Assembly (NCBI GenBank): GCA_946615275.1
Contig: CAMOHV010000011.1
Location: 1-14,696, forward strand
DNA from: an uncultured Verrucomicrobiota bacterium
GTDB lineage: Bacteria > Verrucomicrobiota > Kiritimatiellia > RFP12 > UBA1067
Length of the DNA: 14,696 nt
Direction: 5' to 3'
Notes under the pieces: generated by a model
Told to the model about the DNA's origin: nothing
The model's input: the letters and a program-made list of their open reading frames with translations, nothing else
Database searches by the model: none
In this document: positions 460-14,696 of the stretch, piece by piece
Numbering within the stretch: position 1 is the stretch's first letter
How the letters are laid out: every line of letters starts with the position of its first letter
Translations under genes and position numbers: made by a program

Positions 460-942
460 TTAGTTTGAATGGATGATCGTAACCTCGTTGGTTTGGGCTG
501 CGGCGCGCTGTGCGGCACGGATCGCCGCCAGCTCAGGCGGCAGGTGGGCCGCCTCCCACGCGGCCTTGATTGACTCCGATCGTGCTTTGGCCGCCGCTAC
601 TGCCTTGGCCCGCGCCTCTGGGTCGGCAGACCTCACCTTACGTCCAGCGGCGGTGTGGACGTAGCCGTCCGAATAAAGCGTAGCCACGTAGATCAACTTG
701 GTAGTCTCGTTGGTGAGGAGATATTGCCCCATGGGACTGCCGTGCCAGGCACGCCGACCGGTCTCGCTCTCCATGTCGCGCCAATACTTACGATTCAGCA
801 GGCCCAATGAATCCTGTAAGTCGCCCTGAGTCCAAACGTTTGTTGACCCATCGGCATACTGTGTGACAGCGACAATGTTGGTGTCTGCCGACCAAGTGAC
901 TGTCGCCACTAGCATTATCAAGGACGTTGCTAGATATTTCAT
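460..942 (-). CDS. Signal-peptide protein, last gene of the late operon, function unknown
   Basis: 160 aa. The start ATG has GAGGA at 7-base spacing. Residues 1-19 form a clear signal peptide (MKYLATSLIMLVATV core, likely cleavage TWSA|DT), so the product should be exported. The mature part opens with a beta-type segment (VAVTQYADGSTNVW), with a related phrase later (YVATLYSDGYVHT). It ends in an Ala-rich helix with RAKAVAAAKARSESIKAAW (from about residue 108) that could form a coiled coil. There are no cysteines and no catalytic motif was recognised. It follows the 188-aa membrane protein by 33 bases and is followed by the terminator. It may be a fibre-associated or periplasmic accessory factor; an exported lysis accessory protein is an alternative but no spanin or lysozyme motif is seen. 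Confidence 0.8.
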   Translation of the reverse strand: MKYLATSLIMLVATVTWSADTNIVAVTQYADGSTNVWTQGDLQDSLGLLNRKYWRDMESETGRRAWHGSPMGQYLLTNETTKLIYVATLYSDGYVHTAAGRKVRSADPEARAKAVAAAKARSESIKAAWEAAHLPPELAAIRAAQRAAAQTNEVTIIHSN

Positions 943-986
943 GGTGATTCCTCGCTGGTTACTGTTAGAACGTCGTTTGTGACCGG

Positions 987-1553
987 TTATTCAATGATGC
1001 GGACACGTGTATTGACGAATGATGCTCTCCCACCATGGCCAGGCATGAGAAACCCTTTAATCTGCCATACCCCATTGGTGTGGACCGTCGGCTCGGGCGT
1101 ATAAGACGCCCCGACCATGAAGTTGTAGTTGGTCGCCGACTCTAGGGGGTAGTCGTACGGAAAATCCGTAAATGTCAGACGTGGAGACAGCTCCATCCAA
1201 TCTGTGGCATTGGTGCTCGCGATTGGACGGTAGTAGACCAGTATCTCGGTGCTATCCGGGAGTATCGCCGTGCGCTTCGCGATCGCGATATGGACATAAT
1301 CATTGGTGACATACGATCCGTTATCGGTGATGTACGGATCATTGATGGATACGGTCGCCTTGCTGCCTCCGTAGATCACGCCCATGATTGCCATGACTAG
1401 CAGCATAAATGTTGTGCCTGGCGGCAGATCGCGCCTAGATGACCGTGCAATCTGCTTTAGCAGCCCAATCATGCCTATCGCGGCGAGCAACAACAGGCCG
1501 ATCACGCATGCCCACAATGCGGCCGCCTCAAATCCAGCGATTACCTCACTCAC
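987..1553 (-). CDS. Two-TM membrane protein with a C-terminal beta (FN3-like) domain
   Basis: 188 aa from a GTG start at 1553, chosen because GGGAGGC lies 7 bases upstream and the GTGA overlaps the preceding stop, as at two other junctions in this operon. An ATG at 1601 would add 16 residues and force a 52-base overlap. Hydrophobic segments lie at about residues 8-32 (ALWACVIGLLLLAAIGMIG) and 48-64 (FMLLVMAIMGVIYGG). The loop between them, KQIARSSRRD, is positively charged, which puts it in the cytoplasm and both termini outside. The remaining 120 residues alternate in beta fashion (TEILVYYRP, TNYNFMVGASYTPEP) and resemble a fibronectin-III-like or fibre domain. Holins also have two short TM segments, but a large external domain is unusual for them. 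Function unknown; a membrane-anchored partner of the preceding fibre is one possibility. Confidence 0.78.
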   Translation of the reverse strand: MSEVIAGFEAAALWACVIGLLLLAAIGMIGLLKQIARSSRRDLPPGTTFMLLVMAIMGVIYGGSKATVSINDPYITDNGSYVTNDYVHIAIAKRTAILPDSTEILVYYRPIASTNATDWMELSPRLTFTDFPYDYPLESATNYNFMVGASYTPEPTVHTNGVWQIKGFLMPGHGGRASFVNTRVRIIE

Positions 1554-3451
1554 TGGAACGCCTCCCACGTGATCGTACCATTGTTGTAGACGGGCCGACA
1601 TTTATGCACGCCGTCTGTGCAGAGGATACCGTCGGGGATGTCAAACGTACCTTTACTCGTGACCTTGACGCCCCCCTCCTGGAAGAACTCGAAGGCGAAG
1701 AAACCCTGTCTGGCCGATGTCGTAACCGTGCAGACCCATGCGCCACTCGAACCACTCCATGTCACAGAGATGTCGGTCGTGAATCCGTTCTCCTCCCGCT
1801 CCCATGCCAGCGGTGAGAGAGCCTGCGTATACCTAAGATAAGGGTGAGTCTCCGCGACCACTGGGACTGCCATCGTCACCGTGTTGCCATTGACGTGGAT
1901 CGAGGTCGCGTCGACGCCGACAAGGTATGAATCCGTCTTCTCGACTGCGAATGCCTCTGTCCCGTCGGCCGACATGAGCGTGATGTTTGACGCCTGGTTG
2001 GTGTAGACCTGTGGGGTGTCGCCATGGTATGAGAGTATCCATATTTGCCCAAACGTCGTTACCTGTTTCTCGTACTCCAGACCGCCGGCGAATACCGTAG
2101 TCGGTGTCGATATCCACGTCGTGTTGCTTGGAGCGGGTGCGCCTAGCCCCGACGTCGTGCCGGACCATCCTCGAGGCGCATACGCCTCTCGAGCACGCGC
2201 CTCCAATTCCGCGACGGCGGAATCGGTGTAGGCGGCCGCCGATCGCACGGTGCGCTCCAAACCATTGGTTTCGGCCCAGATCGTTATGTAGGTGTTTGTC
2301 TCAGTGAACTGCAGCAGGCGGAGTGTGGGGGGATTGACGCGCGAGTTGTAGTTGGTCACCTCGCACACGACGTTGCTTCCGGAGTAGAGGCGGTAGATGA
2401 GCGAATTTTCGGCGCGCATGTCCGCTATCTCCTGTTCGATGGGCAAGACCGCTGCCGCGGCGGCAGCCGTGGCGTCCGTGCGCGTTGCGATACGCCCATT
2501 CTGCACCATCGTCACACGTGCCTCTCGTGTCGCAATGATATCGACATACTCTCCAGACGTATTATCATATAGGGGATAGCTGAATTCCAGGGCGGCTTCC
2601 GCCGCTTCACGAGTTGGATGAAAACTCTCCATGTACGGCAGTGAATTGTAGTCACTGCCGGTAATCAACCACGGGAGGTCTGGATATGGAGAATCCTCGA
2701 TAATTATAACATCGCGGGTCTGTCCATCGCTGAATACCCAATCCGTATAATTGGTCTGTACCTTGTATACAGCGAGGTCAGATTTATCCCTCATTGCGCG
2801 TGAGAGTGCGTTTGTCGCCTCGTCGGCGTAAATCGTCGCGGGCATGAGGCTCTGATGTTGCTGCAGCGCGGACATGGCGCGGTTGGAGACGGTCTCGTAG
2901 TCGGCGGGGGCGAGGCCGGAGAATGTCACGTTTGTCACGACCTGGGCGTCATTGCGGATAGAGCCGAGCGGCGCAGTCTGGACGGATGCGCCAAGCGCGG
3001 AGAGGCAGAGTGTGAGCAGGATTGCCGCCGCGCCGCCGCCGAGCTTGTGGATTATCTCGTTGAGCTTTGCGGCCATGTCGTCCATTGTATGCAGCTCCGG
3101 CAGGGCGTCCACGCCGTCAAGCGGCTTGCCGCCGTCCGCGCCTGGATCCATGTCCAGTGTCGAGCCGTATACAAGCGCGGGAGAGTCCGTCACCTTGATT
3201 TTGGCGGAGATCGGGTATGTTTTGACGCGCCCGTCCGCATATCCGGCCGCAAAGTAGATCGGGGACGTGCCGAGCTTGAACGCGGCGGACTCCTCCGCCG
3301 TGAATCGGATCGAGAGTTGGTCGCCCTGGGCGACGTGTTCGAACGTGCGCACCACGCCCTGGTATTTGGCGAGCAGCCGCGCGGCCGTCTCCGGCGCCGT
3401 GAAGCAGATGGGGGCGGGCGTGTCGCCCTTTAATATGGTGGGAATGGCCAT
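1550..3451 (-). CDS. Tail fibre/baseplate fusion: BppU-like N-terminus, internal hydrophobic segment, fibre C-terminus
   Basis: 633 aa. ATG at 3451 has GGAG about 9 bases upstream; a TTG 15 bases earlier is less likely. Residues 1-90 (MAIPTILKGDTPAPICF, then AEESAAFKLGTS, AKIKVTDS) look like the N-terminal fold of phage upper-baseplate BppU-type proteins, which attach receptor-binding parts to the tail. At 139-156 there is an 18-residue hydrophobic run (GAAAILLTLCLSALGASV) ending like a signal-peptidase site. Ala-rich helical stretches near 325-350 and 400-422 may trimerise. The rest is beta-rich (SDLAVYKVQTNYTDWVFSDG; C-terminal VHKCRPVYNNGTITWEAF). Base composition changes inside the gene: the 5' third is about 63-75% GC in 60-base samples, while 2521-2760 is about 42-45%, suggesting mosaic exchange of the receptor-binding half. 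Probable host-recognition protein. Confidence 0.75.
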   Translation of the reverse strand: MAIPTILKGDTPAPICFTAPETAARLLAKYQGVVRTFEHVAQGDQLSIRFTAEESAAFKLGTSPIYFAAGYADGRVKTYPISAKIKVTDSPALVYGSTLDMDPGADGGKPLDGVDALPELHTMDDMAAKLNEIIHKLGGGAAAILLTLCLSALGASVQTAPLGSIRNDAQVVTNVTFSGLAPADYETVSNRAMSALQQHQSLMPATIYADEATNALSRAMRDKSDLAVYKVQTNYTDWVFSDGQTRDVIIIEDSPYPDLPWLITGSDYNSLPYMESFHPTREAAEAALEFSYPLYDNTSGEYVDIIATREARVTMVQNGRIATRTDATAAAAAAVLPIEQEIADMRAENSLIYRLYSGSNVVCEVTNYNSRVNPPTLRLLQFTETNTYITIWAETNGLERTVRSAAAYTDSAVAELEARAREAYAPRGWSGTTSGLGAPAPSNTTWISTPTTVFAGGLEYEKQVTTFGQIWILSYHGDTPQVYTNQASNITLMSADGTEAFAVEKTDSYLVGVDATSIHVNGNTVTMAVPVVAETHPYLRYTQALSPLAWEREENGFTTDISVTWSGSSGAWVCTVTTSARQGFFAFEFFQEGGVKVTSKGTFDIPDGILCTDGVHKCRPVYNNGTITWEAFQ

Positions 3452-3485
3452 GTTACGGGTCTCCAAGGTGGTTTGCAGGGTGGTT

Positions 3486-3920
3486 TCAGTCGACGCGCAG
3501 CGTCCATTCGCCGTCGATGTTGACAGCGGTGAGAGGGTGGGCGCCGCCGTTCTCGTCGGATGCGGTGGCGACCACGACGTTCCCGGATACGCGCGGAGTC
3601 ACGGTCAGAGTGCCCGCCCCGAGGTAGGTCTCATTTCCCCGGGCGTCTGTCGCCACGACCTCATACTGCGCGTCTCCGGACGCCGGGAAGCACGCGGGCG
3701 AGGCGTAGCCGGTCCAGAGTCCGCTTGGATGCTCGGCGCAGTGGACGACATAGTGGTCGTCGGTGCCCGGGACCCCGATGCGGACCTCCAGGCCGGTGAC
3801 GTCCGCCGGGACATTGCGCAGGGCGAAGTGCCAGGACGACAGCTGGGCGGGGCGCCATGTCACGAGGGGGACGTTGAGTTGCGCGGGGCAGATCACGATG
3901 AAGGCGTTGCAGAGTTCCAT
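3486..3920 (-). CDS. Small beta-rich tail-associated protein, probable baseplate or fibre accessory
   Basis: 144 aa. ATG at 3920 is used because AGGAGG sits 7 bases upstream; a TTG at 3926 would be too close to it. The gene begins 2 bases after the stop of the beta-helix gene. The sequence alternates as a beta sandwich: LEVRIGVPGTDDHYVVHC, then SGLWTGYAS, QYEVVATDARGNETYLG, GTLTVTPR. Four cysteines (4, 11, 61, 77) are notable for its size. It reads like a single Ig-like or BppU-like domain. With the N-terminal domain of the next gene it could form the connector that holds fibres on the tail tip (inference from position and fold type). No enzymatic motif and no signal peptide are seen. Confidence 0.72.
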   Translation of the reverse strand: MELCNAFIVICPAQLNVPLVTWRPAQLSSWHFALRNVPADVTGLEVRIGVPGTDDHYVVHCAEHPSGLWTGYASPACFPASGDAQYEVVATDARGNETYLGAGTLTVTPRVSGNVVVATASDENGGAHPLTAVNIDGEWTLRVD

Positions 3921-3922
3921 GG

Positions 3923-5587
3923 TCAATCCTCCTGGGCGTCTGTCTCGACGGTGACGGGCTCCGCCGGATCGGGCAGCTTCATCGGCTCCACAGCGTTGCG
4001 CGCGACGAGCTCGGCGCGCCTCGCCGTCAGGGAGGCGCTCTGCTCCTGCGTGACCGTGCCGGACGCCACAAGGGCGTCGATCACCGTGGCCGCCGCCGCG
4101 TCGCGCACGGCGCGGTCTGCCGCGCTGTTATAGCCGAAGGGCAGAAGGTCGAAGTCCGACATGGCCGGGCGGTGTGTCTGCGCGTCCAGGCGCGCGGCGA
4201 GATTGGTGGCCGACGTGCGAAACGCGAACGTGCCGAAGCCGCTGCCGGGGCCGTCAAGCCCGAAGCCGAGGGCGGAGTTCGCGCAGTTCCGCGTACTTGT
4301 GTCGCTCGTCGTCCGCGCCGCGCCCACTACCACCGTTGATTCCGTCCAGTTGCAACGTTCCCCGTTGAACATATACCCCCGATGGTGGAAGGTGTCTACA
4401 CGGTCGATGTCGATGTAGCAATTCTCCATTTTTAGGCTATAGGCGAGATTGGCCGCAACGGGCGAAATCGTGCGGAATTTCATTGTCGAATTGCGCGCGC
4501 CGCATTGCTCGAATATCACGCCGAAGTCCTGGGAGTTCGGTTGCGCGGTGGCGGCGACGTTGAAGTCCACGTCGCAAGCGTCCAGGGCGCACAAGTGAAA
4601 AAGCCATTGGCTGTTGCGCACCACGGCGTTCGTGCCCTCGATCCGGCAGTTCTCCAGGTAGAGAAGTTGCAAGGCCGCGCGATTGTTGGCCCCGGCGTTC
4701 ACGGACGGAATACGTGGGTCGCGGATCGTCGCGTTCTTGATCGCGCAGAAATAGCCGCTTGATCCCGCGCTGATCCTTCGGACGCCGCCGCAGTCGATCA
4801 CCACCTCGTCGCGGCGTCCGACGCCGACGATCGCTATGCGGTGGGCCATAGACGGAATCACGCCGTCCAGATATTCCGGCGATTCGTAGGTGCCCCGGTC
4901 GATGTAGATGGTGGTGGTGTCGTTCGTCAGGGCCATGATCGCCGCCTGGAGCGTCCTTTTCGGATAGTAGGTCGAAGCGCCGGAGTATTCGTCGCTGCCG
5001 TATTCCGCAACGTAGATGGCGTTCGTTTCGCTGCGGTTCCAGTCGCTAGTCCATAGCGGGGCGCTCGTCTCCACCACACCGTCGCGTTTCACAATCTTGC
5101 GCGCGTTAAGGTAAAGCGTTCCGTCGTTGTAATAGATAGGAGGACAGCCATCCCAATTCACCGTGGCCGTCTTGTCTGGTGTGATCCAAAAGCGTTTAGC
5201 GCCACCATCCACGTTAAAGTGGCCATTGATCACGGTGCAGTTCGTCCTACTGTGCGCCCCCATGAAAGCGCCCGAGCCTATGCCCACGCATCCATAAAGG
5301 TTCGACGAGGCGTAGCCAGACCAATTGCCCACCATGACGCAGTGTTTGTTTCCGCCGGAGATGGCGGTGGAAAGCGCGCCGACGGCAACGCCATGATCGG
5401 CGGACGACTGGCGGAATGCGCTGTTTCCCACGGCGGTGATGTAATCCCCGCTGGAGCGTGCGCCGCTGTACGCGGCGGCGGAGTATGAGTTTGTGCCGTC
5501 TATCTGATAGGCGCGGTTCAAATATTGCGAGGCGGCAAACGCCGTTCCCGCGAACACAATGATGATTGAGATGATTTTGCTTTTCAT
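3923..5587 (-). CDS. Exported-looking tailspike: YadA-like head repeats plus right-handed beta-helix
   Basis: 554 aa, with AAGGAGA before the ATG. Residues 1-18 form a signal peptide (KIISIIIVFAGTAFA, cleavage AFA|AS). Residues 52-107 hold four repeats of the hydrophobic-hydrophobic-G-x-x-A/S type (AVGNSA, AVGALS, MVGNWS, GIGSGA) spaced 16-17 residues, as in the head of trimeric autotransporter adhesins. From about 190 the motif NAIYVAEYGSDEYSGAS then PKRTLQAAI matches the DUF1565/pectate-lyase-like start of right-handed beta-helices, and repeated short beta turns run to about 425. The tail (from about 487) is helical and ends in an acidic Pro-rich stretch. There are 13 cysteines, far more than in the capsid protein. 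Likely a trimeric adhesin or tailspike. No confident catalytic residues can be named, so polysaccharide cleavage is possible but not shown. Confidence 0.78.
   Translation of the reverse strand: MKSKIISIIIVFAGTAFAASQYLNRAYQIDGTNSYSAAAYSGARSSGDYITAVGNSAFRQSSADHGVAVGALSTAISGGNKHCVMVGNWSGYASSNLYGCVGIGSGAFMGAHSRTNCTVINGHFNVDGGAKRFWITPDKTATVNWDGCPPIYYNDGTLYLNARKIVKRDGVVETSAPLWTSDWNRSETNAIYVAEYGSDEYSGASTYYPKRTLQAAIMALTNDTTTIYIDRGTYESPEYLDGVIPSMAHRIAIVGVGRRDEVVIDCGGVRRISAGSSGYFCAIKNATIRDPRIPSVNAGANNRAALQLLYLENCRIEGTNAVVRNSQWLFHLCALDACDVDFNVAATAQPNSQDFGVIFEQCGARNSTMKFRTISPVAANLAYSLKMENCYIDIDRVDTFHHRGYMFNGERCNWTESTVVVGAARTTSDTSTRNCANSALGFGLDGPGSGFGTFAFRTSATNLAARLDAQTHRPAMSDFDLLPFGYNSAADRAVRDAAAATVIDALVASGTVTQEQSASLTARRAELVARNAVEPMKLPDPAEPVTVETDAQED
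5258..5440 (-). repeat. YadA-like head repeats within the tailspike
   Basis: Residues 50-110 of the 554-aa protein contain four [AMGV]-[VI]-G-x-x-[AS] cores at residues 52, 68, 85 and 102. The 16-17 residue period is close to the 14-16 residue period of left-handed parallel beta-rolls in YadA heads. The pattern is visible directly; the fold is inferred. Confidence 0.55.
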
Positions 5588-5597
5588 GGTTGTCTCC

Positions 5598-8135
5598 TTA
5601 GTTGATCAGATCGGGTGGAAGCATGGGCACGGGCGGCAGAGGTGAAGACACCTCCGGCGGCACTATGTTGCGCTTGGTGTTGGGGTCTATGGTGCTGCTG
5701 TCTCCTCCTAGCGGCCCATCAGGCAGCGGTATGTCGAGTATTGGCAGCTCCTCTTCCTCCTCTAACTCCGGCCACACCATCGGGCAATTACGCCATTCCT
5801 CGTCGTCATCGTCCTCCGGCTTCTCCGGTGGTTCCTCCGGCTTCTCCGGCTTCTTCGGATTCTTCGGCGGCAGTATGGGGTTTTTCCTCTTGCCATCTTC
5901 GTCTTCTTCATCGTCTTTGGGAGGCGTGGGGCCGATGGGGTCGATGGTGGTGGAGTCCGAACCATCGCGGCGGTCAGCGCCGCCCTTGGTGCGTGAATAG
6001 CCGCATGGATCCGTGCCGTTGAACATCCCATCGGCTGTTGCGCCACCGTCGGCGGTCCCGGCGCTTATGTAGCCCTGTCCGCCCACGCACATCTCCTCGC
6101 CGCTGAACGGGTCGGCCTCGAAGAGGTGCATGCACTTGTAGAGTCCGCACGCGCACCAGTGGTATGTGGCGCTCTCCTTGCCGTCTCCGTTGTCGGGAAA
6201 CGACCAGTAGTGGGATCCCGTGATCTGCTCCTCCGTCAGGGGTTCGCCGTCCTCGTCCACGAACATCCCGCACCTGTCGCAGGCCGAAACCACGCAGAAT
6301 CTGTTGGTCGGCGACTGCCATTCCTTTGTCACTTTTGGGATTTTCCCCTTTTGATTGACTATGGCCACCACGCCGGGCTGATGTATGGACGTCTCAGGCT
6401 CAGCGCCATTCAATACCGCCTGCCTGATGGCCTCAGGCTCTGTGATCCCTTCCAGATTGAAGAAGCATGGGCATTTGCAGTAGTGCTCATCTTGTCCATA
6501 GAACCCCCACATGTGGCGGGCAAGCGCGCCCGACACACGCTCCCCGCATTTCTTGCAGACGCCGGTTATGCGATGCCACTCTCTATCTACGTAGACATAC
6601 GAGAAGTTCTCCGAGTCGGGATCCAATTCATGTGGGTCCTTGACGCGGCGAACATGGGGGCATGGATCGCGCTGGCATTTCCTCACGTCGTAGTGGTCCG
6701 AGTCGTCATATGGCTCATAAGTGTCATGCTCATGCGCGTGTTCAAGGTGGACGGCGTCCGACGCGGAGCTGTACGCAAGGCATTCGCAGGAACAATAGTA
6801 GTCGGTGTCGTCGTCTTCGGGTCCGGTATGGTGCCATCCGCGATGGTGGACGATGCCGGTGGCGGGCTTGTCGTTGTCGCCGCAGATTTCCTTGGTTTCT
6901 TCCGGTCTGCCGCCAAGCCCCTTCATCTCTATCTTGTTCACGCACACGTCGCACTTCCCCGGGTATTTCTCCTCGAACGCATGCTGCCTTGTCGCGTTGC
7001 AGTTGCCGCGCGTGCATTTGCAGTGCGCTCCGAATATGTGGCCCTTCTCCAGGCACACGTCCTGCACCTTCACCTTCGTTGGATATGTGTGAGGGTAGGG
7101 CGGGATAGTGACCGTCCCATTCGCCAAGAGGGTCTCCCAGAACAACTGCCCCACAGTCAACGTCGTGGTGACTGTGTTTCCGTAGTCGTCCGTGTCGGTG
7201 AACTGCACTTGCGTGGGGATGGGAACATACCAGTTGGACGGAGCTTCCCAGGCGCCATTCGGGATGTCGGTGCCCGGCTGCCATTCCTCGTCGTCGGCCA
7301 GTGAGCCTCCATACTCTTCGTTCCAGTCGATCGGCCCGGGCCCGATGTAGTTCAATCCAACCACCACGGTTCCCCCTCCTTGCGGAGCGGCGGCGCGCAG
7401 ACGCAACGAGCGGAGCGCGGGCGCGCCGCGGACGGGCGTCCAGGTGAACGCCAGGGACCACGACTGATTTGTGGCGTTGCCACACCATTCATGGGTGGCT
7501 GCGGTCTCGCCAGCCGCCGCCGCGTTGAACTCCTCTTCAGTCAGCGAGTGCGGTGCGATGGTGAACGCCCCCTGGACGTGCCTGACGCCGTTCGTGTAGC
7601 CCCACGCGACGACCTCGATCCTGTCGGGGTAGCCGAGAGAATCCCACTCGCGGCCATCCGCGACGTCGGAATAAACGAACCACCTTCCGCCGCTCTTATC
7701 GAACGAGAGGCGCGAGCATCCGCCCGTCAACGCGCCGCAGAAAAGCTGCCCCGGGGCGACGCATGCGTACAGCGTGCCGGTGGGGCATTCCGGCAGATCG
7801 GAATCGACAACGACCGCGCCGTGGAAAGGTGGCGTCGCGATCGTCTCAACGCTCAGCGAATACCGCTTCTCCACCATCGAGACTGAGCCGTTCGTCTCCG
7901 CCACGGCGTACCGGACGGTGGACACGCCGTTGGACGGCACGAAATCCGCCACGCCCTCGCCTCCGTAGAACTGCCGCAGCACGCCGCTGTTGATGATCGC
8001 AGCAATGGTCGCACCCGACGGAATCGCCAAGGCGTGGGCCACGTAGTTGGACGTCCAATGCATCGTCGCCATCGGCGAAGCGGCGGCAGACAGCGTGGAC
8101 AATGCCAAGATCGGAAACATAGCGGTGGCTCGCAT
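5598..8135 (-). CDS. Large exported-looking Cys/His-rich tail-region protein with repeated CxxC...CxC modules
   Basis: 845 aa from the ATG at 8135, which overlaps the previous stop as TGATG and has GGAGGG upstream; an in-frame upstream ATG (8231) would sit deep in the preceding gene. Residues 1-20 form a signal peptide (MFPILALSTLSAAAS). Residues 20-330 are beta-rich. Residues 361-711 carry over twenty cysteines and many histidines in at least three related modules. Each starts with CxxC (395, 527, 619), has a His/Trp-containing middle and ends with Y-x-C-x-C or H-W-C-x-C (448-452, 553-557, 661-663). This could bind zinc or, if exported, form disulfides. Residues 736-782 are a Pro/Glu/Lys/Asp linker and the C-terminus is acidic and Pro-rich. 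The place after the tape measure fits a tail-tip hub or fibre, but no Tal or peptidase domain is recognised. Confidence 0.72.
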   Translation of the reverse strand: MRATAMFPILALSTLSAAASPMATMHWTSNYVAHALAIPSGATIAAIINSGVLRQFYGGEGVADFVPSNGVSTVRYAVAETNGSVSMVEKRYSLSVETIATPPFHGAVVVDSDLPECPTGTLYACVAPGQLFCGALTGGCSRLSFDKSGGRWFVYSDVADGREWDSLGYPDRIEVVAWGYTNGVRHVQGAFTIAPHSLTEEEFNAAAAGETAATHEWCGNATNQSWSLAFTWTPVRGAPALRSLRLRAAAPQGGGTVVVGLNYIGPGPIDWNEEYGGSLADDEEWQPGTDIPNGAWEAPSNWYVPIPTQVQFTDTDDYGNTVTTTLTVGQLFWETLLANGTVTIPPYPHTYPTKVKVQDVCLEKGHIFGAHCKCTRGNCNATRQHAFEEKYPGKCDVCVNKIEMKGLGGRPEETKEICGDNDKPATGIVHHRGWHHTGPEDDDTDYYCSCECLAYSSASDAVHLEHAHEHDTYEPYDDSDHYDVRKCQRDPCPHVRRVKDPHELDPDSENFSYVYVDREWHRITGVCKKCGERVSGALARHMWGFYGQDEHYCKCPCFFNLEGITEPEAIRQAVLNGAEPETSIHQPGVVAIVNQKGKIPKVTKEWQSPTNRFCVVSACDRCGMFVDEDGEPLTEEQITGSHYWSFPDNGDGKESATYHWCACGLYKCMHLFEADPFSGEEMCVGGQGYISAGTADGGATADGMFNGTDPCGYSRTKGGADRRDGSDSTTIDPIGPTPPKDDEEDEDGKRKNPILPPKNPKKPEKPEEPPEKPEDDDDEEWRNCPMVWPELEEEEELPILDIPLPDGPLGGDSSTIDPNTKRNIVPPEVSSPLPPVPMLPPDLIN
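5790..5930 (-). other. Pro/Glu/Lys/Asp low-complexity linker in the 845-aa protein
   Basis: Residues about 736-782 consist of acidic clusters (DDEEDEDG, EDDDDEE) flanking a PKNPKKPEKPEEPPEK type block. Such stretches are extended, disordered spacers, here separating the Cys-rich modules from a short Pro-rich C-terminus. Confidence 0.7.
6003..7055 (-). other. Region encoding three zinc-ribbon-like or disulfide modules
   Basis: Residues 361-711 of the 845-aa protein. Module cores are CDVC (395) to CSCEC (448), CKKC (527) to CKCPC (553), and CDRC (619) to CAC (661) followed by C668. The middles contain HHRGWHH, RHMWGFY and SHYWSF respectively, so Cys pair, His/Trp block and CxC pair recur in the same order. 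A fourth half module (CHCKC type, 372-379) precedes them. Confidence 0.55.
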
Positions 8136-8656
8136 CACGAAATCCCTCCCATGGTTGCCGCTCCGAATGTCTCGACGTCGATACGCTCCAGCCGTCCCTG
8201 CTTGTCGAATGTCCACGTGCGTTTGCACCAATGCTCGGCGTTACCGTTGGCTCTTTCTATCTGCCGCGAAAACACGTCGATCTTCACGCCGGCCGTGGCC
8301 GTGGCGCGATCCCAGGTGTTGTTCTGGTTCGCCGGGACGGACGCCCCGCCCTCGCCGGCGTTGTATGCCTCATCGGGAGTGGGGTGGTTCGTAATGGCGG
8401 CGTCGATGTGAACGGGCGTGGTGCCGTCGGCCACGTCCTTGGCGAATCCGCGCTGCACGAGTTCGCCTTCGAGCGCGGACACGTCGAGATCCCATTTGGG
8501 GCCGGCCTGCAGGCTCGGCTCGGGCGGACATGTGAAGCTTATGCAGTGTCCTCCGCGGGCGTGGTTCCACATGTCCGCAAGCGCGTTTAGCCACGCTGCC
8601 TTTAGCAGTCCAAAGACCGCCCCTTTCCGGAATCTGTTGAATAGATGCGCCGCCAT
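8135..8656 (-). CDS. Tail-tip candidate protein, function unknown
   Basis: 173 aa. ATG follows AGAGGAAGG closely and starts 10 bases after the upstream stop; its own stop shares a base with the next start (TGATG). The N-terminus is basic and helical (NRFRKGAVFGLLKAAWLNALAD), resembling the short anchor helices seen at the start of some phage fibre or tip proteins. It then becomes polar with a beta-rich C-terminus (WTFDKQGRLERIDVETF). It has three cysteines and no signal peptide by eye. It lies two genes after the tape measure, where distal-tail and hub proteins are encoded in long-tailed phages, so a structural role at the tip is likely by position only. Confidence 0.7.
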   Translation of the reverse strand: MAAHLFNRFRKGAVFGLLKAAWLNALADMWNHARGGHCISFTCPPEPSLQAGPKWDLDVSALEGELVQRGFAKDVADGTTPVHIDAAITNHPTPDEAYNAGEGGASVPANQNNTWDRATATAGVKIDVFSRQIERANGNAEHWCKRTWTFDKQGRLERIDVETFGAATMGGIS

Positions 8657-8666
8657 TGCCTTCCTC

Positions 8667-9137
8667 TCAGAGCGGGGTCGATTCTATGGTGGTCTTCTGG
8701 ACGGTCCACGCCCCTGCCGCATTAGCGCGGAACGACTTCACCTTCACTATTGTGCCGTTGCAGTCAGGGACGTCCACCCATGCGTTGCCCTGTGTGAACG
8801 TATGGCCCGTCATGTTGTTCGAGATCGTGACGCCGCCGAGCGCCCCTCCGGAGAGAGAGGAGGCCGTGGACTCGTCAACGGCACGCCACTCCTCGACCGT
8901 GGTCGTGATGCGCACCTTGCAGGCGATCCGCACTGTGCCCGTCTGGTGGAACTGCGTCACGCGCACGTCGTTGCCGTCCGCGTCCTGCACACGGTTGCCG
9001 TTCGCGTCGAGAAGATACGTCTCGAGCGTGTAGCCCACGGGTATCAGCTCCTCGCGCAGGATGCGGTCTTCGGACTCCTTCGAGATGAGGAAGTAGTTCG
9101 CCTGGTTCGTGTTTCCGCTAGTGTTCAGCCATGCCAT
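8667..9137 (-). CDS. Tail-tip candidate (position of distal tail protein), function unknown
   Basis: 156 aa beginning 2 bases after the tape-measure stop. It starts MAWLNTSGNTNQANYFLISK and contains RILREELIPVGYTLETYLLD, a duplicated Asp/Gly/Asn phrase (DANGNRVQ, DADGNDVR), the strand TVRIACKVRITTTVEEW, and a beta-type end with VDVPDCNGTIVKVKSF. The composition suggests an all-beta virion protein. Being the first gene after the tape measure it sits where a Dit-like protein is expected, but no Dit family motif is recognisable and the length is shorter than typical Dit proteins (about 200-300 aa). No signal peptide. Confidence 0.72.
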   Translation of the reverse strand: MAWLNTSGNTNQANYFLISKESEDRILREELIPVGYTLETYLLDANGNRVQDADGNDVRVTQFHQTGTVRIACKVRITTTVEEWRAVDESTASSLSGGALGGVTISNNMTGHTFTQGNAWVDVPDCNGTIVKVKSFRANAAGAWTVQKTTIESTPL

Positions 9138-9139
9138 GT

Positions 9140-10852
9140 TCAGCCCACCTCCGCGAACGACTTCTCTATGTTCTCAAGCGATTCCGCGGCGCGCTGCGAC
9201 GCCTCCGCCGTGACCTTGGCGTATTCCTGGGCGGCCCGCTCCTCCTCGCGGGCGAGTGCCACGCGGCGGACGGCCTCCTGGTCCAGCGAGAGGTTCTTCG
9301 CCTCGCGCCAGTCGCGGCGGAACCTCAGCTTCTCGAAGTCCTTCTCGAACTGCGACTGCGCGGCGGCGTCGGCCTTCTCCTCCTCCAGCTGCGCCTTGAG
9401 CGAGCCCTTGTCGCGGTACCAGCCCCAGGCCTGGCGGACCGCGGACTGAGCGGCGGCCAGCCGTTTCTGGGCTTCGGCCTCGACCTGGGCCTTCTCCTTC
9501 GCCTCCTCGCGGGCGTTCTTCATGCGTGTCTTATGCAGTTCCCGCTCCAGCCGCTCGCGTAGGCGCTCCTCTTCCTTCGCCAGTTTCTCGGCGCGCTTCT
9601 GGGCCGCCTTTGCCTCTTTCTCTGCTAGCTTCGCCGCCGCCCGCTCGTCGTTCTTGACTTTGGCCTCGGCCATCTGCTTCGCGATGCGTTCATCCTCGCT
9701 CTGTCGCTTCTTCGCGGCGTCGGACTCTGCCTGCTGCCTCTTGCGGACGGCATCCTCGCGGACCTTCGCTTCGCGTTCCGTCGATTCCCGCTTCCTGTCT
9801 GCCTGCTCCTGACTCGTGCTTCTCCATGCAGCCGTGCCCGCTTCCAACGCATCGTCGTGCGTCCCGCCTGCCCACCATGTGCCGACCATTGCTCCCGCCA
9901 CAGATCCAACCTTCTCCAGCCCGTCGCGCATCCATTCGTAGGCACTCTTCAACTTGCCTAGCCATCCGAACGCAATCTTGGCGTATTCGGCCACCTTTTC
10001 CATCGCTCGCCCGGCTCTGTCGGCCCACACTGCGATCGTGCCGTCCTGGTTCAGCTCCTTCATCTTCTCCAGCAGGAGCGCAAGCCCGTCCTTCACCGTG
10101 TCCAGCAGCGCTCCGCCAAATGTGCGCACCGCGTCATCCCACTGCGCGGATATTGCGCCCATCAACCCTTCGCCTGTCTGCTCCGTCTCCTCCATCGCCC
10201 CTTTGAACTTCCCAAGGGCCTTCTCCAGCTCCTGCCACACCTCGAGATTGGATGCGCCGGACTTCTGCAAGTCCTCCAACCGCTGCGCCACCTCCGGAGT
10301 TATCGCCCCCATGTTTCGCAACCCCATCGTGGCTCGTGTCAACGGTTGTCCGTCGCGGATTATGGCGTATGCCCTCCCCACCTCATGCGCAAGGTTCTGT
10401 ATCGGCTGTCCAGTGGCCGCAGCCGCGTCGCCCACGAGTTGCAGAGACTTCTCAAACCCTAGAGCGCCATCGGTCATCACCATCAGCGATCTCGATGCCT
10501 TCGCGAACTCTTCAAGCGAGAACGGCGGTGTGTCGCCCATCTCCTGCAGCATTGCCATGTGGGCGCGGGCATCGTCCATCGAGCCGACAAGGGCCTTGAA
10601 CTGGACGGTCATCGTCTCGAACTGGAAGGCCTTGCGCAGCTTGCCGAGCGCGTTCTGCGCTATGGTGCCGAGCATCTGGAAGCCCGCTTGTATGTTGGCG
10701 AGGTTGCTGCCGATGCCGGACGCAAACGACTTTACCTTGTCCAAGATGCCCTTGACGCCGTTCACCACCGATGATTTTGCAGACGCCACGCCCTGCGAGG
10801 TGGCATCTTTTACGGAGATCTCATACTCAACTCCCTGTTTCGAGTCAGCCAT
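9140..10852 (-). CDS. Tail tape-measure protein
   Basis: 570 aa, overlapping the preceding gene by 8 bases. Residues 70-230 hold the conserved tape-measure region (FETMTVQFKALVGSMDDARA, then ATGQPIQNLAHEVGRAY and a GLRNMGAITPE stretch). Residues 45-75 and 285-330 have amphipathic or hydrophobic helices (GSVAGAMVGTWWAGG). Residues about 350-470 and 485-565 are highly charged Ala/Glu/Lys/Arg coiled coils. Such proteins fill the tail lumen during assembly and set tail length; at the usual 0.15 nm per helical residue this one predicts roughly 85 nm. No lytic transglycosylase or peptidase motif is visible. Identification is by domain type, the coiled coil and position after the tube. Confidence 0.9.
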   Translation of the reverse strand: MADSKQGVEYEISVKDATSQGVASAKSSVVNGVKGILDKVKSFASGIGSNLANIQAGFQMLGTIAQNALGKLRKAFQFETMTVQFKALVGSMDDARAHMAMLQEMGDTPPFSLEEFAKASRSLMVMTDGALGFEKSLQLVGDAAAATGQPIQNLAHEVGRAYAIIRDGQPLTRATMGLRNMGAITPEVAQRLEDLQKSGASNLEVWQELEKALGKFKGAMEETEQTGEGLMGAISAQWDDAVRTFGGALLDTVKDGLALLLEKMKELNQDGTIAVWADRAGRAMEKVAEYAKIAFGWLGKLKSAYEWMRDGLEKVGSVAGAMVGTWWAGGTHDDALEAGTAAWRSTSQEQADRKRESTEREAKVREDAVRKRQQAESDAAKKRQSEDERIAKQMAEAKVKNDERAAAKLAEKEAKAAQKRAEKLAKEEERLRERLERELHKTRMKNAREEAKEKAQVEAEAQKRLAAAQSAVRQAWGWYRDKGSLKAQLEEEKADAAAQSQFEKDFEKLRFRRDWREAKNLSLDQEAVRRVALAREEERAAQEYAKVTAEASQRAAESLENIEKSFAEVG

Positions 10853-11594
10853 GCGCCTTCCCCTTGTCTTCGTCTGACCTTCCCTTGACGCGCTTCTCGA
10901 TGCGCGAGGAGACGAGCCGGAGCGCGGTCATGGCGTCGTCGAGCTCGTCGAGCATCCGCCCCCCGCCGCCCGAGCCCCCGGAGTATGCCCGCGCGAACTC
11001 GTGGAGATCGTTGTAGGCGAGTATCGCGTAGGATCCGCTGCGCTTCCACATCCACTCCTCCGCCGGAATCCCGCTCTGCGCCTCCAGGCGGGCGCAGATG
11101 GCGGCCCAGTCGGCGGCGGCGGCCGATGCCGTGGATTTCGGGGTTGCGGGCCTCCGTGCCAGCCCCAGCACCTTGTCGATCGCCAGGTTCACCTCCTCAG
11201 GCGTCGCGTGGATCGTGCGCATGGTAGCCTTCACGGCGCGCATGATCGCCCGCTCCGTGTCCAAGCCCCTGAACGCCTCCGGATCGCGCGAATGGGCGAA
11301 CGCGTATATCATCGCGAGACGGTACTTGGGCGACGTTCCGCCGCCCAGGATTCCTTCCACCTCGTCCAGCCACACGCTCGCGCCAATCGTAAGCTTCCAG
11401 AACCAGACGCCCTCGCAGACGCGGACGGGGAATCCCGCCGCGTCCGCGTTCACCTCGCGGAACGGGTCGGCGCACCGGCGCGCCGCCTCGGCGAGCTCGT
11501 AGAGCTCCTCCGGCGTGGCGTCGCCTGGCTCCACGCCCTGCCTGCGCAGCTGCTGGAGCGCCTTCGCGAAATGCATCTGGCCGGTGATCTTCAT
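10845..11594 (-). CDS. Probable tail-assembly chaperone (positional), function unconfirmed
   Basis: 249 aa. The start overlaps the tube stop as ATGA and the end overlaps the tape-measure start by 8 bases. It is mostly helical, with Trp-rich patches (VCEGVWFWKLTI at 59-70; AEEWMWKRSGSYAILAYND at 178-196), a Gly/Ser linker (205-212) and a charged, Lys/Asp-rich tail. In long-tailed phages the gene between tube and tape measure encodes the chaperone that coats the tape measure before the tube polymerises. Many are made in two forms by a -1 frameshift, but no canonical slippery heptamer was seen near the 3' end and no second frame continues downstream, so a single product is more likely. No sequence motif confirms the role. 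Confidence 0.7.
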   Translation of the reverse strand: MKITGQMHFAKALQQLRRQGVEPGDATPEELYELAEAARRCADPFREVNADAAGFPVRVCEGVWFWKLTIGASVWLDEVEGILGGGTSPKYRLAMIYAFAHSRDPEAFRGLDTERAIMRAVKATMRTIHATPEEVNLAIDKVLGLARRPATPKSTASAAAADWAAICARLEAQSGIPAEEWMWKRSGSYAILAYNDLHEFARAYSGGSGGGGRMLDELDDAMTALRLVSSRIEKRVKGRSDEDKGKAHG

Positions 11595-12346
11595 CAGGTC
11601 CCGCTTGTGTTGGAGCTGGCTGCGGCGATGTCCGCGTCGTTGGAGATGTGGTGGATGAGGTTGAGGGACGTCGTGGTTACGGCCGTGTTGGACGGCGTGG
11701 TTGTCTTCTGGTCGTTCGTCCAGCCGGGCCCGACGACGTAGTCGTCAGTAGTGGCGTCGCCGGTGAACTCCACCGCCAGCGTCTCCACGCCGTCGTGGTT
11801 CTCCCCGGCGAGCTGGGTGCCGTCGCGCCCTGGTTCGTCGATGTGCGTGACCTGCAGCGTGTATGTTGCGGAGCGGAAGTCCACGACCGCGCCGCTTGCG
11901 AGGGCCACGCCGCCAAGGTCCGACGGCACGCCGAACGCCGCCGCGCCGATCGTCACCGTGGCGGTGTACGTGCGGCACTTTCTGCCCGTTTGGCTCGTGG
12001 TGTCCGCGTGGTTCGTGCCGTCCTCGTGCATGTGGGCGTTCACGACCATCTTGGGCTTGATCTGGTCGCGGCCCCAGGTGATCTGGATGGAGTCGATGTG
12101 CCATCCGCCAGAGACGACTCCGCCCTTGGGGATGGAGATGTCGCCGGAATCCAGATTGTTCACGAACGTCCAGCTCCACGTCGCCTTCTTGCCGTGCGTG
12201 GCGTTGCGCAGCTCGTCGCCGTGGGCGTTGAGTTCGTTGGCGTAGGTGGATGCGGACTGCTTCGGGCCGCTTGTCTGGAAGTCCCAGTCGCTGCCGACGG
12301 CTATCGGGCAGGTCGGGTTGAAGAAGTCTATTGTTCCGTGTGCCAT
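11594..12346 (-). CDS. Probable major tail tube protein
   Basis: 250 aa, preceded by AAAGGAACA. It is all-beta and Gly/Thr/Asp-rich with few charged helices, typical of tube subunits: WSWTFVNNLDSGDI (57-70), a conserved-looking GGWHIDSIQITWGRDQIKP (80-98), TYTATVTIGAAAFG, and THIDEPGRDGTQLAGENHDG (167-186). It lies between the tail-completion gene and the chaperone/tape-measure genes, the usual tube position. The EPGRDG hexapeptide also occurs in the preceding gene product, suggesting that both share a tube-like domain. No tail-sheath gene sits next to it, so the tail is probably non-contractile. Assignment rests on position and composition rather than on a family match. Confidence 0.72.
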   Translation of the reverse strand: MAHGTIDFFNPTCPIAVGSDWDFQTSGPKQSASTYANELNAHGDELRNATHGKKATWSWTFVNNLDSGDISIPKGGVVSGGWHIDSIQITWGRDQIKPKMVVNAHMHEDGTNHADTTSQTGRKCRTYTATVTIGAAAFGVPSDLGGVALASGAVVDFRSATYTLQVTHIDEPGRDGTQLAGENHDGVETLAVEFTGDATTDDYVVGPGWTNDQKTTTPSNTAVTTTSLNLIHHISNDADIAAASSNTSGT

Positions 12347-12359
12347 TTCGTTGTTCCTT

Positions 12360-13109
12360 TCATGTTGTCTTCATGGTGCGGCCCGTGAGCCGCACGGTGG
12401 CCGTGTCCTCCGCGTCGGCCGACATGGCCGCCGAGTTCACGTAATACGTCCTGCCGCCGTATTCGAACGGCGCGCCGATCTCCGGCAGGTCGTCCTCGCT
12501 CTGCGTGGTGACCGTGCACTCCAGGTCGATCGTCCAGTGGCGGTCGCGCGTGCCGAGGTAGCGGGCGTGGCCGTCTCGCCCTGGTTCGTACACGTTCACC
12601 CCGCCGCGCGCGACGTTCTTCTTCGTCACCTCGCCCAGGATCGTCGTCTCGCCGATGCCCCAGGAGACGGCCGCCGCCGGGTCCAGTGCGAGCGGCGCCA
12701 CGAAGTTGACGATCATGCGGTAGTCGTCGTCTGCGACGTCGGCGCGCTGCATGTCGACATACACGATCCGCCGCCCGCGTATCTCGCGCCAGTGCAGCGC
12801 ATCCTTCGCGGCCTCCGCCACCGACGTGACGGTGTGGCCGGGCGTGCCGCTCTTGCGGTTCCGTCGTGGGTTCTCGACCAGGTTCAGGCTGATCTCGAGA
12901 TCGCCGGCCGAGGATGCCCCCGTGCCGGGCTTGCGACGGTGCCCGCTCGCGGCCACCAGCACGAGCACCCCGAACTTCCCCCGCGCCTTCTCTGCCTCTG
13001 CAGACGGATCGCAGGCGTCCTCCACGGCCACGGTCACGTGGAGCGGATCCGCGATCGTCTCCTGCAGGATTGTCGCGATGGCCTTGCAGATGTCCGCCTG
13101 GCGGCTCAC
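12360..13109 (-). CDS. Tail completion/terminator-like protein with a tube-like C-terminal half
   Basis: 249 aa from a GTG that overlaps the gp36-like stop (GTGA), the same arrangement as the GTG start at 1553. Residues 1-140 (ICKAIATILQETIADPLHVTVAVE, then KFGVLVLVAASG, RRIVYVDMQRADVADDDY) have the alpha/beta pattern of short head-tail joining or tail-terminator proteins encoded after gp36 in Mu-like phages, where the gp37 family sits. Residues 145-249 form a separate beta-rich part with ILGEVTKKN, NVYEPGRDGHARYLGTRDR (172-190), WTIDLECTV and YYVNSAAMSADAEDTATVR. That half shares EPGRDG with the tube, so the protein may be a natural fusion. It would act at the capsid-tail junction and close the tube. 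Confidence 0.7.
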   Translation of the reverse strand: MSRQADICKAIATILQETIADPLHVTVAVEDACDPSAEAEKARGKFGVLVLVAASGHRRKPGTGASSAGDLEISLNLVENPRRNRKSGTPGHTVTSVAEAAKDALHWREIRGRRIVYVDMQRADVADDDYRMIVNFVAPLALDPAAAVSWGIGETTILGEVTKKNVARGGVNVYEPGRDGHARYLGTRDRHWTIDLECTVTTQSEDDLPEIGAPFEYGGRTYYVNSAAMSADAEDTATVRLTGRTMKTT

Positions 13110-13501
13110 GACAGCACCCCCAGCGAGTTGAATATCTTCGCCGGCTTCGAGATGATCACGCCGTCCGTCGTGGCGTCTATCGCCTCCGTGCCGCTCGCGA
13201 GCGCCCGAAGTCGCGCCTCCTGCTCCTCCGCCAGCTTCGCCCACGGATTCTTCCCGTCGTCGTCGCCGTGGCGGCGGTAGAGGAGGTCGAGCAGGAACAC
13301 CCGCACGGCGTAGTCCGCCGCCACGGAGTACTGCGCCGGCACGGCCCCGCCGAAGACGGCCTCGGCGCGGGCGTTCGCGGATGCGAGCGCCGCGTCGAAG
13401 GCCTTCTCGTCGGCGAAGCCGTCCCGGTCGTCGTCGAGGGCCGCGATGATCATCTGCTCCGGCATGTCGCCGGTCAGGTCGTCTATCGTCAGCCTCGTCA
13501 T
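13106..13501 (-). CDS. Mu gp36-like head-tail connector (DUF1320 family)
   Basis: 131 aa. The start lies 6 bases after the capsid stop. The N-terminal half carries the family hallmark seen in Mu gp36-like proteins: MTRLTIDDLTGDMPEQMII followed by LDDDRDGFADEKAF (22-35) and ALASANARAEAVFGG. The Asp-rich DDDRDGFADE looks like a calcium-loop and is a recurring feature of this family as I recall it. The middle is helical (YAVRVFLLDLLYRRHG). These proteins form part of the neck between portal and tail. The length is close to the usual 130-150 aa. The position right after the gpT-type capsid gene matches the gene order of Mu. Confidence 0.85.
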   Translation of the reverse strand: MTRLTIDDLTGDMPEQMIIAALDDDRDGFADEKAFDAALASANARAEAVFGGAVPAQYSVAADYAVRVFLLDLLYRRHGDDDGKNPWAKLAEEQEARLRALASGTEAIDATTDGVIISKPAKIFNSLGVLS

Positions 13502-13507
13502 GGAGCC

Positions 13508-14446
13508 TTACTTCTCCTCCCAGTCCGCCACGGCCGCCGCGCCGCCCTTGTAGGCGAGGAACGGAAGAGTCAGGAAGCCCTCGCCGCGCGCGTGGACGCC
13601 GTAGAGGAAGTCGTTCGTCATGAAGACGTTCGTGTCCTCGTCGCGGTCCTTGCGCGTCAGCACCGGCAGCTTGCGCTTCTGGATGCCCACGGCCTTCACG
13701 CCGTTCTTGTCGCCCAGCACGTACCACTCGTTCGCGTGGTCGCCCACGAGCGACTGCGAGACGCGCACCTTCAGCGCCTTCGCCGGGCTCACGTTGCTCA
13801 CCGTCGTGCCGTTGTCCGCCACGAGGTCGGCTTCGCAGATCAGCTTGGCCGCCGCCTCGAGCGACGGGCCCACGAGGAGCACGTCCGGGCGGATCTCGCC
13901 CGGCTCGCCGCCGTAGAGCTTCCAGCCGCGCATCGCCGCGACCGCCGCCTCCACCGCAGCCTTGCCGAAGGCGGTCGTCACGGCGTTCGTGAACGTGCTC
14001 TTCCCGAGCACGCGGCCCGAGCAGAAGAACGGGTTGCCGTCCGCCCACTCGCCGTTCCCCAGGAGCGCCTCGATCGCGAGCTTCTTCCACAGGTTCTCGG
14101 CGTCCGCGCCCATCATGCCGATCAGCGGCGAATATACGCCGTACTGGTCGTCCTCGATCTCGTTGCGCGAGACCTTGATCGTGTTCTCGAAGTCGCGGTT
14201 CACGACCGTGAGCTTGCCGAGCTTCGCGTTGTTCAAGACGCGCTCGCCCACCCACTCGTGGATGCCGTGCAGCTGCTCCAGCCAGCTGTGCTGCGTGGCG
14301 GAGCCCGCGCCGGTGAAGGAGAGGGCGATGTCCTCGGGAAGGAGGTCGTTCGGCGTCACGCGCGTCTGCGCGGCCTTCTGCGCCTCGGTGAATTTCGTCT
14401 GGAACGTCTTGAAGAGTCCGTCCAGTGTTGCTGCAGTGATGTTCAT
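13508..14446 (-). CDS. Major capsid protein, Mu gpT-like
   Basis: 312 aa, with GGAAAGG upstream of the ATG. The diagnostic block of the Mu gpT family is clear: MNITAATLDGLFKTFQTKF at the start, HSWLEQLHGIHEWVGERV (53-70), VVNRDFENTIKVSRNEIEDD (81-100) and QYGVYSPLIG (101-110). Later KAAVEAAVAAMRGWK, DVLLVGPSLEAAAK and KALKVRVSQSL correspond to the shell-forming HK97-fold region. The C-terminal GEGFLTLPFLAYKGGAA fits the usual end, and the length is near the family norm of about 300. It is the most reliable anchor for calling the region a Mu-like structural module. The prohead protease and scaffold gene expected upstream lies outside the window. Confidence 0.93.
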   Translation of the reverse strand: MNITAATLDGLFKTFQTKFTEAQKAAQTRVTPNDLLPEDIALSFTGAGSATQHSWLEQLHGIHEWVGERVLNNAKLGKLTVVNRDFENTIKVSRNEIEDDQYGVYSPLIGMMGADAENLWKKLAIEALLGNGEWADGNPFFCSGRVLGKSTFTNAVTTAFGKAAVEAAVAAMRGWKLYGGEPGEIRPDVLLVGPSLEAAAKLICEADLVADNGTTVSNVSPAKALKVRVSQSLVGDHANEWYVLGDKNGVKAVGIQKRKLPVLTRKDRDEDTNVFMTNDFLYGVHARGEGFLTLPFLAYKGGAAAVADWEEK

Positions 14447-14491: not shown

Positions 14492-14696
14492 CTACCGGCC
14501 AACCACCACGACCACCCGGCCGTCGTCGCGAACGTCGGCCACCTTGCCGACGGTCTTCGTGCCGCTCGTCTTCGTCACGGTCCAGGGGTTCGTCGCCACG
14601 GAGTAGGCCGTAGCTCCGATGTCCTTCTTCGCGATCGCGCCGGCGCCGGTCGTGTTCTCGAGGATGAATCCTCCGCGCTGTACCGTCACGTTCTCG
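14492..14696 (-). CDS. Capsid decoration/cement-like protein (5' end cut by window)
   Basis: The reading frame is open to the right edge, so the true start is outside; the GTG at 14689 is not necessarily the start. The 67 or so residues visible include TVQRGGFILENTTGAGAIAKK, then GATAYSVATNPWTVTKT and TVGKVADVRDDGRVVVVVGR, ending at TAG (14492). The pattern of short beta strands, with a tVgkv-a-d-v-dgrvvV ending, is that of the small head-decoration (DUF2190-like or FluMu-type) proteins commonly found just before a gpT-type capsid gene. It likely stabilises the capsid surface. Only the C-terminus can be judged. Confidence 0.6.
   Translation of the reverse strand, partial: ENVTVQRGGFILENTTGAGAIAKKDIGATAYSVATNPWTVTKTSGTKTVGKVADVRDDGRVVVVVGR

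Follow-up and report, generated by a model that had tools for sequence, protein, structure and literature searches.

The stretch of DNA analysed here (the window; 14,696 nucleotides, positions 1 to 14,696 of contig CAMOHV010000011.1, assembly GCA_946615275.1, from an uncultured bacterium of the Verrucomicrobiota) covers the head and tail region of a Mu-like tailed prophage. All of its genes lie in a single minus-strand block that extends from a head decoration (cement) gene down to some small genes close to position 460 (Table 1), and five of the six genes at the distal end of this block encode predicted export signals or membrane segments, the same count as that given by an earlier sequence-only reading. 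A Mu-like capsid family (phrog_371) was present in the window and a head protease (PF10123) scored above cut-off in a related locus, L001. Matches to the tape measure were weak, and the tube and other tail genes were placed by position alone. The capsid and cement genes of the window, together with the protease in L001, ruled out a tail-only particle, i.e., a tailocin or extracellular contractile injection system.

Six loci on contigs of metagenome-assembled genomes (MAGs), labelled Kiritimatiellae, Lentisphaerae, Verrucomicrobia or uncultured bacterium, carried the window capsid at 82-97% identity. The tail blocks of these loci showed little match to the window by tblastn beyond the tape measure, near-identical heads being paired with different tail blocks. 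A domesticated or gene-transfer particle with an exported adhesion apparatus, which the sequence-only reading had allowed for, is not favoured and appears very improbable. While capsid relatives came from MAG contigs only and two scans of viral_contigs with the window capsid and fibre returned no relative, the differing tail blocks behind near-identical heads and the MuA/MuB-looking genes seen by eye upstream in the maps of relatives, outside the window, fit an active transposable phage.

Table 1. Features of the window, listed in the direction of transcription.
Feature	Position	Strand	Basis or remarks
Capsid cement gene, 3' part	14492..14696	-	phrog_1731 E 1.3e-6; 5' end outside window
Major capsid protein, no export signal	13508..14446	-	phrog_371 E 1e-49
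Head-tail region gene, no signal	13106..13501	-	No family match
Head-tail region gene, GTG start, no signal	12360..13109	-	No family match
Probable tail tube, no signal	11594..12346	-	Position only; no family match
Probable tail assembly gene (chaperone-like), no signal	10845..11594	-	Position only
Tape measure protein, no signal	9140..10852	-	phrog_1686 and PF20155, weak matches
First distal gene, no signal	8667..9137	-	Signal score
Second distal gene, no signal	8135..8656	-	Signal score
845-aa tail/adhesion candidate	5598..8135	-	Signal peptide ~residues 1-19 (8079-8135); 31 Cys
554-aa product, tailspike-like by eye	3923..5587	-	Signal peptide ~residues 1-18 (5534-5587)
146-aa (TTG start) or 144-aa (ATG start) protein, no signal	3486..3920	-	
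633-aa tail fibre candidate	1550..3451	-	N-terminal domain, internal signal-like segment, family-defining C-terminal half
Internal signal-like hydrophobic segment, 633-aa residues 139-156	2984..3037	-	
188-aa protein (GTG start), two membrane segments and C-terminal domain	987..1553	-	ATG at 1601 gives 204 aa
160-aa protein	460..942	-	Signal peptide ~residues 1-19 (886-942)

Signals were scored by a single home-made rule based on n-region charge, a hydrophobic core and an A-x-A-like site, calibrated on 160 Escherichia coli K-12 genes to which labels were assigned manually on the basis of product names and general knowledge, with ambiguous genes dropped. Scores of at least 5.0 were reached by 29/32 exported, 0/97 cytosolic and 12/31 membrane proteins of this set, and scores of at least 4.25 by 9/97 cytosolic proteins. 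False positives of the rule included P0019 (a fibre), probably L077 9647, and the cement proteins of L149 and L152, which scored above 5.0 from a run inside the fold; four more signal-free cement loci scored 4.95-4.99 in the same way, near the 5.0 line.

The N-terminal signal peptides proposed in the sequence-only reading for the 845-, 554- and 160-aa products were recovered as Sec-like, with scores of 5.45, 6.69 and 4.96 (the last barely below 5.0) that were matched by 1, 0 and 38, respectively, of 2000 N-termini generated at random from the composition of the mature protein concerned. The 188-aa product, previously read as having two membrane segments, scored 4.75 and does contain two strong hydrophobic segments, a 19-mer at residue 11 and a run near residue 49; 8/1000 shuffles of this protein contained a 19-mer so hydrophobic. 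The internal signal-like run noted in the 633-aa product is also present but taken alone falls within chance (181/1000 shuffles), and no signal was found in the 146-aa product. Complete genes of the window upstream of the distal block scored 1.2 or less. The features seen were those of Sec signal peptides of the signal peptidase I type, i.e., a basic n-region, a hydrophobic core and an A-x-A-like site. Sec-type signals in the window and its relatives are well supported, and export and cleavage of the carriers are predicted.

Conservation of the signals across other genomes, a point raised with the original proposal, was confirmed, signal states being constant per family. Counts were made on called genes of the fetched loci with the best of several starts, after removal of duplicate loci L065, L066 and L134. 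Genes in these MAG contigs were called by our own codon-usage caller, which missed some signal starts (L002, L134), and the loci counted are related and partly selected. A signal was present in 12/12 homologs of the 160-aa protein, all scoring at least 5.2, and 13/13 homologs of the 188-aa protein scored at least 5.0, 11 of the 13 with a 19-mer of at least 2.0. Signals were found in 0/28 homologs of the capsid, 0/12 of the tape measure, 0/4 of the probable tube, 0/6 of the chaperone-like tail assembly gene, 0/10 of the gene at 13106..13501 and 0/6 of the 146-aa protein (PF19077 Ig-like E 0.001, under cut-off), while for the gene at 12360..13109, 0/5 homologs reached 5.0 and two reached at least 4.5. 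The only relatives of the 845-aa product among the matches listed, P0241 and P0242, scored 5.06 and 6.09. The 31 Cys of this product lie, by eye, in CxC/CxxC-His-like runs. The 554-aa product matched phrog_4636 tail spike at E 0.03 only, and its one distant homolog found (L123, 26% identity) scored 5.5.

For the 188- and 160-aa genes, the chances are evenly divided that they form a plain envelope or lysis module, in which signals would be ordinary. In relatives such as L077, these genes follow the fibre and precede lipoprotein-like genes (by eye), and signal-bearing endolysins are described for phages in the accessible text of PMC8878798. However, neither gene matched lysis families, nor did the neighbours tested in L119, L115, L080 and L077, and a lysis module would leave the fibres and cement unexplained. 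In L119 (11444-14793), five consecutive signal- or membrane-positive genes (5.3-6.3) stand behind a 633-type fibre and are followed by further genes that include, by eye, lipoprotein-like and integrase-like ones.

The 633-aa product has 303 relatives, for which per-member figures cover the 120 among the matches listed. With few exceptions (e.g., P0067), a common C-terminal half stands behind varying fronts, which consist of a signal plus an adapter (VPLxWT...HGETLEF; type 1), an N-terminal domain (IPTILKGDT...) followed by a hydrophobic segment inside the protein, the arrangement of the window fibre (type 2), or a signal joined directly to the region downstream of the type 2 internal segment (type 3). 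Over residues 177-633, P0002 and the window fibre share 98% identity, yet P0002 has the signal-plus-adapter front; since a near-identical C-terminal part follows either front, fibre fronts appear to have been swapped with a signal kept. The internal segment of the window fibre sits where other architectures have the N-terminal signal, and a similar run at approximately residues 131-187 occurred in 12 of the 120 members, including the window's. Scores of at least 5.0 were noted for 45 of the 120 and of 4.25-5.0 for 48; 13 were called internal, including the window's own and P0019 (a wrong call), and 14 had no call, several of these, by eye, being N-truncated or having a hydrophobic N-terminus that the rule rejected. 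In the codon comparison described below for cement, four fibres gave pN/pS values of 0.71 and 1.05, near saturation. Internal initiation of translation in the 633-aa reading frame was considered as well; Met123 has GGAG upstream, but several homologs with the internal segment lack a matching Met (by eye), and this explanation was rejected as the general cause.

Of 161 genomes belonging to the same order as that of L001, 40 contained a match to the adapter-bearing fibre of L002. Thirty of 54 listed places of this fibre type were read, of which 25 reached at least 5.0 when the best start was taken. The remaining five were L044 (4.9), L059 (3.3), L049 (a short hydrophobic N-terminus), L013 (a broken frame, left out) and L063. 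In L063, a signal-free adapter forms, by eye, the C-terminal extension of a tube-like protein, a fusion that suggests a role for the adapter in virion docking or decoration. Among 40 aligned 633-type members, two matched phrog_23820 tail fiber, one phrog_26941 tail protein, one phrog_2824 virion protein and four an unnamed phrog; none of the 40 matched Pfam, and comparison of fibres with solved structures returned nothing useful. P0067 nearly coincides with the window fibre over its N-terminal 210 residues and in the internal segment, but its C-terminus is entirely different and contains a GDSG motif (protease-like by eye). The signal peptides of P0002, P0003, P0095, P0099 and P0107 contain inserts such as NSPFSIL or HYSLFT, which look like a short DNA repeat entering a tolerant region.

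The internal segments of the 633-aa type and the two-segment 188-aa neighbour would suit an arrangement in which fibres and cement stay attached to the inner membrane by uncleaved hydrophobic N-termini and particles are finished there. This arrangement is improbable, as the hydrophobic cores of fibres and cement are short and followed by signal-peptidase-like sites, as in cleaved signals.

The finding that most extends the original observation concerns the cement gene. Only its 3' part lies in the window, where the encoded fragment is 95-96% identical to the C-terminal parts of the signal-bearing cement proteins of L001-L004 and differs at 2/67 residues from its nearest homologs. In L001-L006, the cement gene directly precedes the capsid gene and encodes a signal peptide scoring 5.7-6.1, and the cement of L068 and L069 (capsid 45% identical) likewise has a signal. 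Thus, the view that capsid, tube and tape-measure genes upstream lack signals stands within the window but does not extend to head genes generally. In the order, phrog_1731 matched 7/161 genomes, with a signal in 7/7, and all 120 database homologs among the matches listed (of 435, many near-identical) scored at least 5.0. Identification as cement (phrog_1731/PF09956/PF22758) came from phrog_1731 matches in four cement proteins (E 1.5e-9 to 2.4e-8), one of which also matched phrog_673 head scaffolding (2.3e-7); Pfam cement matches were below cut-off in two of the four and absent from the other two, a search against phage records gave no match, and the family profile matched a solved phage minor capsid protein (9gay) weakly (E 0.012).

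The phrog_1731 match starts at residues 18-38, at or past the signal end, and the mature start (xEHDTPQ/AERDTPR) can be aligned by eye to NRDTRER, with which relatives without a signal begin; the signal is placed ahead of the canonical N-terminus. For signal codons and codons 21-50, respectively, pN/pS was 0.35 and 0.35 among five loci and 0.50 and 0.49 among six, so that the signal is under coding constraint equal to that of the mature part. This constraint and a Shine-Dalgarno motif before the cement signal start speak against mis-set starts as a source of false signals; the motif was weak before some fibres.

In the phylum of L001's genome, probably Verrucomicrobiota, phrog_1731 was found in 39/387 genomes. 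Thirty wider-phylum cement loci were read, and 29 lacked a signal by eye (24 with an M-x-A-L-T-like start, five otherwise), the exception being L159/L176 with a real-looking signal (6.34). L176 (genome G267) has two more signal-bearing genes among its head-tail genes, at 4938-5792 (6.39) and 5814-6221 (6.1). On a capsid tree of 28 rows, in which the window and L067 were unlabelled, nine signal-bearing and 17 signal-free cements could be explained by a single change (support 80/66), as was the case in 84% of bootstraps. The known Mu-like head module (phrog_371, PF10123, phrog_1731/PF09956) is thus represented in relatives by the same families in the order protease, cement, capsid, but with a cement that adds an N-terminal Sec-type signal missing from 29 of the 30 wider-phylum loci. 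A 175-aa signal-bearing gene (L077:16458-16985; 6.02) stands beside a capsid-like gene assigned by position only; no family match was found for either. Given L077, export of head proteins may have more than one origin.

Differences between core and distal genes were evident across 14 tape-measure loci. Of the genes as far as the tape measure, 7/149 scored at least 5.0 (six encode cement, and the seventh is L077 16458-16985), as opposed to 40/99 downstream genes, among them some for membrane or lipoprotein-like products and some doubtful calls (Fisher p 3e-12, with relatedness of loci ignored). Large distal genes (at least 300 aa) were then compared between 13 loci of the window's group and 11 same-phylum loci with homologous capsids, for which anchors were set by hand, several on a gene other than the tape measure. 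In the former, 18/37 had an N-terminal and four an internal signal, whereas in the latter 2/33 had an N-terminal (one of them, L188 8658, host-like by eye) and one an internal signal (p 1e-4). These same-phylum prophages speak against signals as a generic trait of distal tail blocks, and among the loci compared the signal is restricted to one lineage. In both sets, genes just behind the tape measure mostly lacked signals.

Since export signals are both present and conserved, the distal module is very likely targeted to the envelope or secreted at some stage, as predicted from its sequences. This agrees with the part of the sequence-only reading that proposed an envelope-anchored or secreted adhesion apparatus; a purely cell-surface adhesion role, in contrast, explains less than export with virion attachment because the cement has the same kind of signal. 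The exported products would, on the cell-surface account, act at the envelope of the lysogen or dying cell, as adhesins or in receptor masking or superinfection exclusion, and not as virion parts. Signals joined to adhesin-like domains are the usual make-up of surface proteins, and papers on diversity-generating retroelements (DGRs) tie signal peptides or membrane segments to cellular, not phage, targets (PMC6199706 and PMC8144416, in their accessible parts). We nevertheless consider this account unlikely, as a capsid cement homolog also bears a signal and the block occupies the place of signal-free large distal genes in same-phylum relatives.

From homology and position, we infer that the signal carriers are virion parts. 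In the favoured explanation, to which we give an even chance, exterior parts of this Mu-like prophage would be exported through Sec and added late to cores built in the cytoplasm. The virion core (capsid, tube, tape measure and first tail-tip genes) would be made and assembled in the cytoplasm, while the exterior proteins (tail fibres, spikes and, in this clade, cement) would be made as Sec precursors. Signal peptidase would cut the signal, the mature proteins would fold in the periplasm, and they would join finished cores once the compartments mix, at or after lysis. For 633-type fibres, the internal signal would keep the N-terminal domain in the cytoplasm, to be then cleaved off or anchored. 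Cement and fibres of other phages, i.e., lambda gpD, T4 Hoc/Soc, T4 fibres and the P22 tailspike, can join finished particles in vitro; as the signal carriers are of these types, export, cleavage and late attachment make up the simplest reading. A more tentative extension, which we place somewhat short of even, is that split-compartment assembly was gained once on this lineage's cement and that tail modules of many prophages in the order incorporate it.

Several observations weigh against late attachment of exported parts. The distal counts are biased upward, because half of the 14 loci (seven) came to light through fibres that carry a signal or are of the 633 type; in favour of late attachment, among the seven capsid-found loci (window included), 6/115 core and 10/37 downstream genes were positive (p 7e-4), and among large distal genes of six capsid-found loci (window included), 8/18 had an N-terminal and one an internal signal (p 0.002). 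Fifteen of the 37 large distal genes in the window's group had neither signal type, some standing right behind the tape measure and some being host-like. In L067 (capsid 48% identical), the capsid gene is preceded by a 147-aa gene of different look that has no signal, and L072:399-770, cement-like by eye, lacks a signal beside another capsid-like gene, although the L072 tail block has several signals; head export is therefore not universal. The carriers are linked to virions by weak profile matches, gene order and homology only, fibres with internal signals are awkward to accommodate, and all hosts are known as MAGs. Oxidative folding of Cys-rich fibres was considered as a reason for export, but Cys was not enriched in signal-bearing proteins (p 0.38), and disulfide folding therefore provides no general reason.

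Comparable uses of Sec are found in other systems. Coat proteins of filamentous phages are inserted through Sec/YidC, and virion proteins with cleavable signals, here predicted, are thus a shared trait; filamentous particles, however, are extruded at the membrane, whereas here the capsid, tube candidate and tape measure lack signals. Spanins are phage lysis proteins that use Sec. Signal-bearing lysis proteins as a group share this route, but the carriers here are fibre- and cement-type proteins. DGR-type proteins displayed on bacterial surfaces likewise combine a signal and a binding domain, which here lie inside tail modules.

Tail fibres and capsid cement are textbook products of cytoplasmic assembly. 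No report of tailed phages that export their tail fibres or cement was found in titles, abstract openings and passages of the open-access literature, preprints and most subscription journals lying outside the search, and none appears in the accessible parts of PMC6920513, PMC13001222, PMC12946066, PMC12309495, PMC6811365 and PMC5313236. If the favoured explanation is true, tailed-virus morphogenesis would not be confined to one compartment, a signal peptide would no longer argue against phage origin of a binding protein (as it does in the accessible text of PMC6199706), and signal-bearing fibre genes should not be annotated as host genes. It would also raise the question of how and where progeny acquire their fibres.

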